Assembly (NCBI RefSeq): GCF_009663395.1
Contig: NZ_QKNW01000001.1
Span: 2,294,001-2,358,000 of the forward strand
From: Halosegnis longus
GTDB taxonomy: Archaea; Halobacteriota; Halobacteria; Halobacteriales; Haloarculaceae
DNA length: 64,000 nt
Reading direction: 5' to 3'
In this document: positions 31,878-53,303 of the stretch, in pieces
Position numbering within the stretch: position 1 is the stretch's first letter
Layout: each line of letters opens with the position of its first letter
Translations under genes and position numbers: made by a program
Notes under the pieces: model-generated
Databases searched by the model: none
Seen by the model: only the letters and a program-made list of their open reading frames with translations
What the model was told of the DNA's origin: nothing

Positions 31878-31979
31878 CTCAATCGCTATCCGAGGGAGAG
31901 GAAAGCCACCCTATCGGTGAGCGTTGTCAGCGACCAACATCGGCGACAGACATAGGACGACTCAGCCAGAGTGACATCC

Positions 31980-33422
31980 ATGACAGACCCCGCTGATTAC
32001 CGCGCCGGCCTCCGCACACAACACGAGGAGGTCGACGACAAGGCGCTCCCAGTCGATGGGGCCTTTCCGGACTGGCTGTCCGGTGACCTGATTAGCAACG
32101 GACCGGGACAGTTCGAGGCCGGCGACACGGCGCTGCGCCACTGGTTCGACCCGTTCGCGATGCTCCGCCGCTTCCGGATCACCGACGGCACCGTGACATA
32201 CACCAACCGATTCGTCGAGAGCCGTGACTACGCGTTCGCGCGCGACGAGGGCGGCGTTCGGACCCCGTTTCCGGGAACGCCGCCCGACCGGCCGCTCAGA
32301 ACGCGGCTCCGACAGGTCCTCGACGGGACCTTCCCGGACAACCCCGTTATCGGCGTCCAGCGGTTCGGCGACGAGTACGCGGCAATCACCGAATCACCGA
32401 CGGCGCTGACGTTCGATCCCGACACGCTCGAAACGACCGGCCGGATCGACCTCACCGCGGGACTCGACAGCGACCTGACGCTCGCGCACGTCCACTACGA
32501 CGGCGACGAGGATGCTTTCTACAATATAGGCGTCGAGTACGGCCGCGACACCGTGTACACGCTATTCAAGCGCCCGGGGAACGGCGGCGAACCGACCGCG
32601 CTGACGCGACTGCGCTTCGATGAGGCGCCGTACATTCACTCATTTGCCGTAACCGACCGATACGCCGTAGTCACGGTGAACGCGTTCGGGCTCGACACTG
32701 GCCAGCTGCTCAAGGGGACGGTGACGAGGGAGACGTTCCTTGATGCGTTCCGGCCGCTCGACGCGCCGTTGCGGTTCGTCGTTCTCGACCGGTCGACTGG
32801 AGAGCACGTAACGACCGCGTCGGCGCCGCCGGCGTTCGTCTACCATCATGCGAACGCATACGAGCGCGACGGGGAGATCGTCGTCGATTTGGTGGCCTTC
32901 GACGACGAGCGGGCGGTCACCGGACTCGCGCTCTCGAACCTCCGGAGCGACACCCCCGACCTGCCTCGCGGCGACCTGCGCCGGTACAGCGTCGCGCTGT
33001 CCGATGGCGAGGTCGCATCGGAGACGCTGTATCAGGGGCCCGTCGAGTTCCCGACGATCAACTACCGGGCGGTGAACGGCCGGCACTACCGGTATGTCTA
33101 TCTCGCTGAGACGGACGGCAGCTCAAGTCTCCCGACGGGCATCACAAAGGTCGATGTCGAGGCGGGGACCGTCCGGCAGTGGCGCGAATCGGGCACCCAC
33201 CCAGGCGAGCCGCTGTTCGTGCCGTCGCCGGACACGGACGACGAGGATGACGGCATCATTCTCTCGGTCGTGTTGAACCCCGAAGCCGACCGCTCTCAGC
33301 TCGTCTGTCTGGATGCCACTACGCTGAGCGAGCTGGGCCGAGCACATCTTCCCCACCGGCTCCCCTTCGGATTCCACGGGCAGTTCTACGGGCCCGGCGC
33401 TCCGGGGCGGAGCATGGCCTGA
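31980..33422 (+). CDS. Carotenoid oxygenase family protein
   Basis: 480 residues from the ATG at 31980. Iron-ligand histidines fit the family: LAHVHYD (about H172), PYIHSFAVT (H220), VYHHANAYE (H289/290) and GFHGQFY (near 468), spaced along a seven-bladed propeller. Such enzymes split carotenoid double bonds; in haloarchaea this may give retinal or apocarotenals, but Brp/Blh is the usual retinal enzyme. No rhodopsin gene is in the window. Its GC content is much higher than its neighbours, hinting at different origin from the surrounding decayed DNA. Confidence 0.92.
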   Translation: MTDPADYRAGLRTQHEEVDDKALPVDGAFPDWLSGDLISNGPGQFEAGDTALRHWFDPFAMLRRFRITDGTVTYTNRFVESRDYAFARDEGGVRTPFPGTPPDRPLRTRLRQVLDGTFPDNPVIGVQRFGDEYAAITESPTALTFDPDTLETTGRIDLTAGLDSDLTLAHVHYDGDEDAFYNIGVEYGRDTVYTLFKRPGNGGEPTALTRLRFDEAPYIHSFAVTDRYAVVTVNAFGLDTGQLLKGTVTRETFLDAFRPLDAPLRFVVLDRSTGEHVTTASAPPAFVYHHANAYERDGEIVVDLVAFDDERAVTGLALSNLRSDTPDLPRGDLRRYSVALSDGEVASETLYQGPVEFPTINYRAVNGRHYRYVYLAETDGSSSLPTGITKVDVEAGTVRQWRESGTHPGEPLFVPSPDTDDEDDGIILSVVLNPEADRSQLVCLDATTLSELGRAHLPHRLPFGFHGQFYGPGAPGRSMA

Positions 33423-35082: not shown

Positions 35083-35946
35083 CTACGGGTCGTACACCCG
35101 GGTCTCGGAGTCTCCACTTGCCCCCGTTTGAGCCCCGCACTCTGGGCAGAAATCCACACGACCGTATTCGGACAGATTCGCGCCACACCCTGAGCAGCGC
35201 GTACTATCACCACCGGTTCTGTTTATACGTCCAATCGCGATGGTCATATTCATATCATGTACTGTGAAGACACCCAGTTCAGGAACCGTTGTCGCTGTCT
35301 CAACACTGATAGGGCGTTGTGGCCGAACCGTGACTAATGCGGAATCTCCGGCTTGAATGTAGTCCGGATCGTCTACGCCTGCATCACGTATATCGCCGCT
35401 TGACGGATCGAGCTTCCAGTCGATCGACTCGATAGCACAGGCGGTCCGTGACGTGTGAATCTGGAAGTCTGGAGTGTACCCTTCTGTGAGCACAGACGGA
35501 TGCTGCTTCACGGCAATCTGGGCCTGAAATCTCTTGACGACGCTGGGGGGACTATCAGCGGGGCCACCGACATCCCCGCAGTTGAATTCCTCTTTTCTTA
35601 ATCCGCGTATGCCGACGAGCGTGTTGTCGAAAGGTATGTTCTCGGGAATCTTATCCGAATGTTCATTTACACTTTTGATTTTACCGTTGGCATCTGATGG
35701 TTGGAAGACGACTTCATCGCCTACAGAGACAGTCCCGTTGTGGATTTCTACAGACGCGATAGTTCCGATTCCGGGAACACTGTAGATATCTTCAACCACG
35801 AGACGAACAGGATCTGCTCTGGAAACCGACGAATCATCCTCTTGTTGAAGAAACCACTGCTGCTGTACATGGTCCATATCGGAAAAATGGGGCTCTACAG
35901 ACCGCTGAATTCGATTTTTGATATTTCTGTCCTCAAGGTTACCCAT
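35083..35946 (-). CDS. EF1A domain II-III protein without GTPase domain, plus zinc ribbon
   Basis: 287 residues. After about 45 unrecognised residues it reads like EF1A/EF-Tu domain II (RLVVEDIYSVPGIGTIASVE, VSVGDEVVFQP, VGIRGLRKEEFNCGDV) and domain III (FQAQIAVKQHPSVLTEGYTP, ACAIESIDWKLDP, LGVFTVHDMNMTIAIGRI). None of the GTP-binding motifs (GxxxxGKT, DxxG, NKxD) is present, and the length leaves no room for them. The C-terminus carries a zinc ribbon CSGCG...CPECG (about 251-272). In EF1A these barrels hold the tRNA and touch the G domain. Function unknown; a translation-linked adaptor or EF1A mimic is conceivable. Divergent flank to the REC-PAS gene. Confidence 0.85.
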   Translation of the reverse strand: MGNLEDRNIKNRIQRSVEPHFSDMDHVQQQWFLQQEDDSSVSRADPVRLVVEDIYSVPGIGTIASVEIHNGTVSVGDEVVFQPSDANGKIKSVNEHSDKIPENIPFDNTLVGIRGLRKEEFNCGDVGGPADSPPSVVKRFQAQIAVKQHPSVLTEGYTPDFQIHTSRTACAIESIDWKLDPSSGDIRDAGVDDPDYIQAGDSALVTVRPQRPISVETATTVPELGVFTVHDMNMTIAIGRINRTGGDSTRCSGCGANLSEYGRVDFCPECGAQTGASGDSETRVYDP

Positions 35947-45360: not shown

Positions 45361-45430
45361 GTGACATCCTCCCCGCCGTGAACGGCGGGGCTTCCCGTAC
45401 TGCGGGTGGGATATTTGCCGGTCTACGACA
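45361..45430 (-). ncRNA. Candidate reRNA (omega RNA) 3' end of tnpB element
   Basis: Minus strand after the tnpB stop: a short linker, the hairpin at 45371-45390, then ggatgtcac, ending near 45361. In IS200/IS605 elements a guide RNA overlaps the tnpB 3' end and takes its guide from sequence just outside the element, here lower than about 45360. This is inference from layout. Confidence 0.5.
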
Positions 45431-46673
45431 CGACCTGTTCTCTCGTGGTGAACGTCCCGCTCTCGCGGTCGAATAGGTGTGTCGAGGGCTGTGCCACACA
45501 GCCGTTACTCCTATCCTCGCCGTGAGGACTCGGAGTTATCTTCTGACGCATGTTTTCCGCCCCGTTGCAATCCGCGTTCCCGACTAACCCGCACGACGAG
45601 CAGACGTACAACCCACGGTGTTTGCGGTTCGACTTCGTGGCGTCACCACATCGTGAACACGTTTTCGAGGTGTTCCACTCGTTCTCTTTCCGTACCTCGA
45701 CACCGCGAATCTCGCCTTTGTAGTCAAGGTACTGGTAGATACGGTCGAACGCCCACGTATGCAACTTCTTATTGCCCGTCTTGCCCCAGTCTGAGTCACG
45801 AACCTTCTCGGGCCAGCTCACCGCGAGCGTTCCAACATCGCGCTCGACACATTCTGTGATGATTGCGTCTGAGAGGACGTGGTAGAAGTGCGTCTCGCGC
45901 TCTGTGAGTTTTCGACGCGCCCACATCGACTTTTCAGATGGGCCGTTCTCACCTTCCGTATCGTATTCAGCACGCTTGAAGTAGTGTTTGTCCTGCTTAA
46001 CTGAGTTGCCGGGGTATAGGACGTATTCGTTAGGGAACGCGACTGTAGCGATGTTCGTGATACCGAGGTCGATACCTGCCACGCCGTCGCCCGCTGAGTC
46101 GTTGGTTTCGAGGTTGACTTTGCAGACGAAGTGCAGTTCCCACTCCCCACCATTCCAGACGGCACGAACGTTCTGCACCGAGTTGACTTCTGAGAGGTCA
46201 ACGTCGGGACGAGTCTGATACTCACAGAGGATGAAGTCCGAGAAATGCTCTTTCAGATTGGAGCCTTTCGAGAGTCGAACCCGATTGGTCTCTGGGTCAT
46301 GTTTGAACCCGTCTTCTTTGAACGTGACTGTACTTCGGGGTCGTCTGTCGCTGTGTTTGCGGTAGCCGGGCGGATTCGCCTCGCCGTCTTTGTGTCGCAG
46401 TTCGAACCACGACTGGAAAGCGTCGGAAAGTTCTTCGATGACTTTCTGACTGGATTGTGCGTTCAGGTCTTTCCAGCACTCCCGGTTCTTCATGTACGCT
46501 TTGAGCGTTCCTTCGTCTGGGATTTCGCCTGTTTCGTCCCAGATTCGGTCGGCTGTCCAGCGTGCGACGTTCCATATCTTCGAGGCAGAGTCTCCGAGCG
46601 AATCGAGGCCATCGCGTACCTGTCGCTGGTTCTGAATGGACCCAACGTAGGTTCGCGTGACCTTAATCGCCAT
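45423..46673 (-). CDS. tnpB: TnpB RNA-guided nuclease with unusual RuvC-II motif
   Basis: 416 residues, full length. RuvC-I GIDLGITNIATV (D202), zinc finger CSRCG...CSSCG (C339, C342, C358, C361) and RuvC-III GNADCNGAEN (D368) are present. At RuvC-II, where TnpB normally has a Glu in an E-D/E-L context, this protein reads GTLAVSWPEKVRD; the only nearby Glu is E289 a few residues later. TnpB cuts DNA matching its reRNA guide and helps the element persist. Activity here is unproven. Confidence 0.92.
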   Translation of the reverse strand: MAIKVTRTYVGSIQNQRQVRDGLDSLGDSASKIWNVARWTADRIWDETGEIPDEGTLKAYMKNRECWKDLNAQSSQKVIEELSDAFQSWFELRHKDGEANPPGYRKHSDRRPRSTVTFKEDGFKHDPETNRVRLSKGSNLKEHFSDFILCEYQTRPDVDLSEVNSVQNVRAVWNGGEWELHFVCKVNLETNDSAGDGVAGIDLGITNIATVAFPNEYVLYPGNSVKQDKHYFKRAEYDTEGENGPSEKSMWARRKLTERETHFYHVLSDAIITECVERDVGTLAVSWPEKVRDSDWGKTGNKKLHTWAFDRIYQYLDYKGEIRGVEVRKENEWNTSKTCSRCGDATKSNRKHRGLYVCSSCGLVGNADCNGAENMRQKITPSPHGEDRSNGCVAQPSTHLFDRESGTFTTREQVVS

Positions 46674-52250: not shown

Positions 52251-53303
52251 ATGGTCGAGGTGAGCGTGGAAACTACGTTCCGCAACCCCAGCCGCTCTCG
52301 CCGCGAAGAGTGGCAACGCGCCACCCATATCCTCCGCGAGTGCAAACAATGGCTCGTGGACTGCTGGGAAGACGGCACGCTCACCTCGTCCGTGACAACT
52401 GGCGACATCGACAACCCACTCTACTCAGCACTCCAAAACCAAGCTATCCGTAACGCGAAGAGCGACTACGACGACGAACCCATCAAGTACACAGGAGAAC
52501 AACCTATCGGGGTTAACAACCAGAACTGGGAAATCAACACGACGGAGAACGACTCTGTCGTCATCGGGTTCCCATGCATCAGCGATTGGTGGTACACGCC
52601 AATCCACGTCCACGACAGCATCAAAGAACCCGTCAAAGCTCTGCTCGATGGTGACGCTGAGAAGACGAAACTCAGTGTGTGGCGAGAAGGTGACGATTGG
52701 TATTGCTCGTTCACCGTTGAGTACGACGAGCAACAAGACGGCGAGGAAACACCCATCGGGGTTGACGTTGGCCACAACTACATCCTCGCCGCTACGCCAC
52801 ACGATGCGAGTGCTGACTCGTTCCTTGTGAGTGGCAAGGAACACAAGTTCGTGCGGCGGTACTATCGTTCCCTGCGTGACTCGCTACAGGAAACTGGGGC
52901 GCATCGCGCCCGAACTCGCGTAGGTAACAAGGAGTACCGTCGCATCCAACACATGAACCACACCCTCTCCAAACGACTCGTCGAATACGCCAGTCAGTTC
53001 GAGAATCCCGTCATCAAACTCGAAGAACTCAAAAACATCCGTGACGGTAGCGAGTGGAACGGCGTCCACTCGTGGCCGTTCTACGAACTGCAACAGTTCA
53101 TCACGTACAAAGCCGAGAAAGAGGGAATACGGGTCGAAACGGTAGACCCCGAGAACACGAGTCAGGAATGTAGTCAGTGCAATGAACTTGTGGGTCGTGA
53201 CGGGAGTAAGTTCGATTGCCCGCATTGTGGGTATGTTCGGCACGCGGATTTGAACGCGGCTGAAAATATCAGCCAACGAGAGGGTGACCCATGCACGGCG
53301 TAA
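52251..53303 (+). CDS. tnpB: TnpB RNA-guided nuclease with canonical RuvC triad
   Basis: 350 residues. RuvC-I TPIGVDVGHNYILA (D172), RuvC-II PVIKLEELKNIRD (E258), zinc finger CSQC...CPHC (C307, C310, C323, C326) and RuvC-III RHADLNAAENI (D333) are all present, so the nuclease should be active. Shorter than the usual 400 or so residues but with no missing motif. Downstream hairpin at 53527-53546 fits the reRNA end. Confidence 0.93.
   Translation: MVEVSVETTFRNPSRSRREEWQRATHILRECKQWLVDCWEDGTLTSSVTTGDIDNPLYSALQNQAIRNAKSDYDDEPIKYTGEQPIGVNNQNWEINTTENDSVVIGFPCISDWWYTPIHVHDSIKEPVKALLDGDAEKTKLSVWREGDDWYCSFTVEYDEQQDGEETPIGVDVGHNYILAATPHDASADSFLVSGKEHKFVRRYYRSLRDSLQETGAHRARTRVGNKEYRRIQHMNHTLSKRLVEYASQFENPVIKLEELKNIRDGSEWNGVHSWPFYELQQFITYKAEKEGIRVETVDPENTSQECSQCNELVGRDGSKFDCPHCGYVRHADLNAAENISQREGDPCTA

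Follow-up and report, generated by a model that had tools for sequence, protein, structure and literature searches.

A GTPase-less EF1A double-barrel protein of Halosegnis longus with a zinc ribbon and a candidate phosphothreonine tag, a possible client of Ser/Thr-kinase/FHA signaling

Introduction

The barrels of EF1A are usually thought to be functional only together with their GTPase. Among the described departures from this arrangement is Tsr1, an inactive translational-GTPase mimic with an EF-Tu-like architecture and no GTPase activity, which according to an excerpt of the published account keeps an inactive G-like domain and acts in ribosome assembly (PMC4895721). In addition, Kaur et al. 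2020 reported that the variable domains found at the C terminus in a caspase/EACC1 system include EF-Tu domains; this system, their system 4, occurs mainly in actinobacteria (PMC7159879).

Two phosphosignaling systems are also relevant here. Binding by FHA domains requires phosphothreonine (PMC8786283). In the GarA/OdhI-PknG/PknB system of Actinobacteria, OdhI/GarA is phosphorylated within the ETTS motif of SDEVTVETTSVFRADFL (PMC8546545). GarA and OdhI carry an FHA domain of their own and regulate 2-oxoglutarate dehydrogenase. In Sulfolobus, as described in an excerpt of the source, ArnA contacts the vWA protein ArnB through its own zinc ribbon in the unphosphorylated state and through its own FHA domain in the state phosphorylated by the kinase ArnC (PMC12852372). 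The system controls archaellum genes.

Here we describe a haloarchaeal protein, encoded in a 64-kb stretch of the H. longus genome (the window), that can be compared with these systems. It resembles archaeal EF1A in domains II and III but lacks the G domain and GTP motifs and has an additional zinc ribbon and a C-terminal tag. Unlike Tsr1, it has no G domain. As in system 4 of Kaur et al., EF-Tu-type domains would belong to a varied set of effector domains that can replace one another, but no caspase is found among the five annotated window genes. Its terminal SETRVY resembles the short phosphorylated ETTSVF site of GarA/OdhI (PMC8546545), whereas it lacks an FHA domain and its effector part is an EF1A barrel. 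A kinase, a vWA protein and an FHA protein with zinc ribbons, the components of the Arn system of Sulfolobales, are encoded in an island of the same genome; the excerpt of PMC12852372 mentions no EF1A-barrel client. Further counterparts are haloarchaeal proteins annotated only as “protein kinase,” which likewise carry G-less domains II and III and are encoded in accessory DNA with other kinases; there the barrel is covalently joined to the kinase, often in tandem, with no ribbon or tag, whereas the window protein stands alone. Our search for literature on EF1A or EF-Tu barrels attached to kinases found none.

Results

The gene opens with an ATG and comprises the following parts (window coordinates).

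35083..35946, minus strand: complete gene (287 aa) for a G-less protein of EF1A domains II and III that ends in a zinc ribbon and a T-x-V-Y tag
35815..35946, minus strand: N-terminal segment, aa 1-44, no similarity to the EF1A G domain
35551..35814, minus strand: EF1A domain II barrel, about aa 45-132 (Pfam PF03144, NCBIfam PRK12317, alignment of 30 EF1As)
35221..35550, minus strand: EF1A domain III barrel, about aa 133-242 (Pfam PF22594 and PF03143, alignment)
35134..35196, minus strand: zinc ribbon CSGCGANLSEYGRVDFCPECG, aa 251-271 (tail comparison with proteins of the same genome)
35086..35109, minus strand: SETRVYDP at the C terminus (aa 280-287), a tag of the form T-x-[VI]-[YF] and a candidate motif for Thr phosphorylation (T282) and FHA docking

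A preliminary description of this DNA, made from the letters alone, had noted a match of about 200 residues to EF1A domains II and III, followed by a CxxC-CxxC zinc ribbon, and both observations were borne out. Pfam placed GTP_EFTU_D2 at aa 61-126 (4.3e-7), GTP_EFTU_D3 at aa 135-242 (1.1e-16) and GTP-eEF1A_C at aa 139-241 (2.2e-23), and chains of solved EF1A structures matched aa 45-241 (1e-44). The NCBIfam EF1A model PRK12317 (212 bits, 9.7e-63) aligned aa 42-242 with profile positions 222-419 of 426 and therefore covers domains II and III only. The ribbon, CSGCG-x11-CPECG, has four cysteines; curated zinc-ribbon models matched it weakly (0.02 to 0.3), and a similar tail ends a PQQ-propeller protein of the same genome. 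Pfam annotation detected neither a kinase nor an FHA domain in the window protein. Single-sequence structure prediction was uninformative (pLDDT, 30). The architecture given in the preliminary description thus stands; what it missed was the informative SETRVYDP beyond the ribbon and the links to kinases.

The G domain is absent from the protein and from its surroundings. The EF1A profile match begins only at position 222, and a tblastn search of the 64-kb window with the G domain of the genome's own EF1A returned chance matches only (best E value, 0.34). When aa 1-45 were aligned with the EF1A G domain, the local score of 18 fell below the shuffle mean of 24.7. These results agree with the earlier statements that GTP-binding motifs are missing and that the N-terminal 45 residues do not resemble a switch region. 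A truncated copy or misread start was ruled out by the lack of any G domain in the window, upstream or elsewhere, and a G-domain remnant at the N terminus by the shuffle comparison. Judged by its sequence, the window protein is not an EF1A, as the defining G domain was tested for and is absent, and it is predicted neither to bind nor to hydrolyze GTP.

The normal EF1A of the genome (a 424-aa frame) is located elsewhere and is 51% identical to the barrel over about 197 residues. An alignment of 30 haloarchaeal EF1As has 138 invariant barrel positions, of which the window protein retains 77, by which measure the EF1A fold is kept, and many of the 61 alterations are conservative swaps (V/I, E/D, K/R, F/Y). 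In the tree, the window barrel was placed weakly inside haloarchaeal EF1A on a branch of 2.87 changes per column, about 100 times the median of 0.029. Because the barrel retains these 77 positions on so long a branch, we discount a recent truncation: on alignment and tree evidence, the barrel is not a recently shortened EF1A. Relative to EF1A, it is altered at E94 (to N), R122, R123 (to C), R230 (to H), G233 and Q234, while D53 and N108 of the EF1A pocket are preserved. We take the altered positions, by an assumed mapping onto EF-Tu that serves as a lead only, to be tRNA- or G-domain-facing, with E94N, R123C and R230H presumably at the contacts to the CCA end, the 5′ end and the T stem. Most barrel modules fused to kinases in other haloarchaea retain the E94, R123 and R230 positions.

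The gene has a GC content of 52% (GC3, 0.52) in surroundings of about 66%, which agrees with its earlier assignment to accessory DNA. Its immediate neighbors are response regulator/PAS, DUF5817 and RPE65-like genes, none of them a toxin or defense gene by Pfam. The RPE65-like carotenoid oxygenase gene (31971-33422; Pfam, 7.6e-109) lies a few kilobases away. Farther along, at 45423-46673 and 52251-53303, are ORFs with CxxC pairs that look TnpB-type or transposase-like by eye, which suggests mobile DNA in the right half of the window, where GC is lower.

The C-terminal tail of the window protein recurs elsewhere in the genome. Over the last 69 residues (aa 219-287), it shares 49% identity with the end of a PQQ-propeller protein that is encoded on another contig and has NTKVYERC ahead of its zinc ribbon. 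An island at C1:2.38-2.43 Mb encodes three Ser/Thr kinases, one carrying an FHA domain, together with vWA, FHA (one with zinc ribbons), DnaJ, PQQ-propeller, HEAT-repeat, cold-shock, pentapeptide and wHTH proteins, and the zinc-ribbon tail is common to many of its products, including PQQ, cold-shock, pentapeptide and wHTH proteins. The genome of the window protein therefore encodes both kinases and FHA readers. Of 15 tail proteins, 10 have a T-x-[VI]-[YF] motif adjoining the ribbon. In total, these proteins contain 15 such motifs, compared with 0.82 expected by shuffling and a maximum of 5 in 2000 shuffles, an enrichment that partly reflects the post hoc definition of the motif by inspection. 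The strict motif occurred 25 times in the island (2.4 expected) and once in the window (1.7 expected), the control set being the window and two other 20-kb stretches. The single occurrence in the window is SETRVYDP of the G-less barrel protein. We consider the zinc ribbon plus T-x-[VI]-[YF] a candidate client tag of haloarchaeal phosphosignaling.

A search for relatives of the barrel covered 97 related genomes as well as 391 genomes of the class, and those with at least two matches were followed up. Nearly all second EF1A-like copies were full EF1As, and the G-less cases were fusions to kinases. Plasmid pLC1Hm-01 of Halomicrobium sp. LC1Hm (G029) encodes a kinase with two barrels (L043:10234-12699), genome G380 a kinase with one barrel (L053:8423-10228) and, from the plasmid search, a plasmid of Halarchaeum sp. 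CBA1220 again a kinase with two barrels (L044:10072-12609). In all three loci the G-less barrels sit C-terminal to the Ser/Thr kinase. Pfam supports the kinase domain and the barrels in both plasmid proteins; the G380 kinase is backed by PADLOC kinase models and by 38 to 43% identity with the two plasmid proteins across some 600 residues. The loci hold additional kinases that carry HEAT or PQQ domains, and a PP2C (50% identical) is present in two of these loci. HEAT, PQQ and EF1A-barrel domains look like interchangeable recognition domains on related haloarchaeal kinases.

The stand-alone, ribbon-tailed form was found only in the window genome across the relatives, class and plasmid searches. 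A query of the N-terminal 70 aa matched only its own genome among 146 genomes of the family and returned nothing from 391 genomes of the order, in a search run without a positive control. Searches for a full-length orthologue found none in genome contigs, where one distant match to aa 46-93 came from a Verrucomicrobia MAG, and none in viral contigs or phages, where one distant, unannotated match came from a Listeria phage record. Plasmid records gave 28 matches, mostly full EF1As, plus the two kinase fusions and fragments; one fragment, from a plasmid of Natrinema sp. SYSU A 869 (L045:6001-6440), contains a stop codon and is a real pseudogene. Whether the G-less form extends beyond this strain, a point raised in the preliminary description, has a divided answer: the barrels recur in other haloarchaea, and the exact stand-alone architecture was found in the window genome only.

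Discussion

The suggestion that this gene puts the EF1A fold to another use is supported by the absence of the G domain and by the recurrence of G-less barrels in other haloarchaea. As to what that use is, the evidence points to Ser/Thr-kinase/FHA phosphosignaling, which was not among the options put forward in the preliminary description. We favor, with some reservation, the reading that the window protein serves such a haloarchaeal network as a sensor or adaptor, a target-binding module derived from the EF1A domain II-III double barrel. The double barrel would have lost its GTPase and then been recruited to the kinase network. It may bind another protein or an RNA, perhaps one retained from the partners of EF1A, while a network kinase would phosphorylate Thr282 of the SETRVYDP tag and an FHA domain, on the kinase itself or on a separate FHA protein, would read phospho-Thr282. 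The zinc ribbon may supply another contact that does not depend on phosphorylation, much as the ribbon of ArnA touches the vWA protein ArnB. Other haloarchaea would reach the same end through one or two barrels fused straight to the kinase. The ribbon and T282 tag, together with potential kinase, FHA and vWA partners in the genome, would be consistent with a client that makes two contacts, and because EF1A barrels are recurrently fused to kinases elsewhere, the link to kinase signaling is supported independently of the motif.

Several observations argue against a signaling role. The gene (C1:2329086) lies in a separate neighborhood, 50 to 100 kb outside the kinase island (about C1:2380000-2430000). 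In addition to the post hoc component of its enrichment, the motif showed no significant overall enrichment near the kinase orthologues in other genera (6 versus 3.1), where single membrane or ribbon proteins bear TRVFSP and TSVFTP. Y/F at +3 falls outside both FHA classes in ELM (pTxx[ILV] and pTxx[ED]). Finally, the kinase-fused barrel proteins have neither zinc ribbon nor T-x-V-Y tag, and a single origin with them is neither supported nor rejected by the tree (p-AU 0.155).

Alternatively, the protein could be a translation-side adaptor or sensor whose barrel still binds aminoacyl-tRNA, a ribosomal protein or EF1A partners independently of kinases. Domains II and III bear most of the tRNA-binding surface of EF1A and EF-Tu, and the fold is intact, with the pocket residues D53 and N108 kept. 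Nevertheless, we regard this as unlikely: E94N, R123C and R230H fall at what we take to be tRNA contacts, which the kinase-fused modules mostly keep, and the tail and the genomic relatives indicate kinase signaling instead. The same presumed contacts bear on the tRNA/EF1A adaptor, or subunit of another translation GTPase, proposed in the preliminary description, for which we found no evidence.

It is rather improbable that the protein is a decoy or sensor, a kinase-wired bait for attackers of EF1A such as toxins, phage factors or host-targeting enzymes. The patchy, plasmid-borne distribution and fast evolution would suit such a role, kinase clusters with variable domains look like conflict systems, and EF-Tu domains occur in the caspase/EACC1 system of Kaur et al. 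2020 (PMC7159879). However, PADLOC defense models did not match the window protein, the kinase matches are to generic kinase models, and adjacent toxin or defense genes are absent, which leaves the toxin decoy suggested earlier without support. A bait should also preserve the attacked surface, whereas many EF1A-invariant positions have been lost.

A decaying, functionless EF1A fragment acquired horizontally is very unlikely: low GC, a GC3 of 0.52, the long branch, presence in a single genome and the plasmid pseudogene in L045 would fit, but the gene is a 287-codon open frame with its own start, no G-domain remnant lies nearby, domain boundaries are preserved, and ribbon and tag are joined in frame to the end of domain III.

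Returning to the phosphosignaling reading, we tentatively raise a broader idea, which we consider possible but doubtful: haloarchaeal kinase networks may have recruited the EF1A double barrel, perhaps repeatedly, either fused to the kinase or linked through a zinc ribbon and phospho-Thr tag, thereby coupling translation status to phosphosignaling. The barrel would then be interchangeable with PQQ propellers, HEAT repeats and cold-shock domains, and its cues would be EF1A partners or charged tRNA. Freed EF1A barrels wired to Ser/Thr kinases, by fusion in some haloarchaea and apparently through the tag in another, would offer a direct way into the question of what these networks sense, and a haloarchaeal client tag of zinc ribbon plus T-x-[VI]-[YF] would allow substrates and partners of these little-understood kinases to be listed from sequence.

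The kinase loci have further features of their own. L043:3443-24678, L044:3511-23862 and L053:1-12750 each contain several Ser/Thr kinases, variously fused to HEAT repeats, PQQ propellers or EF1A barrels. A protein of about 690 aa (L043:4688-6757 and L044:1342-3507) is 65% identical between the plasmids of the two genera; it has no Pfam match in L043 and weak PADLOC matches of coiled-coil type. A cassette of vWA and kinase-FHA genes, traced through kinase orthologues, recurs in 13 of 59 related genomes (L065-L068, L070), at some sites accompanied by additional FHA/zinc and membrane-protein genes, and resembles the Arn system of Sulfolobales.
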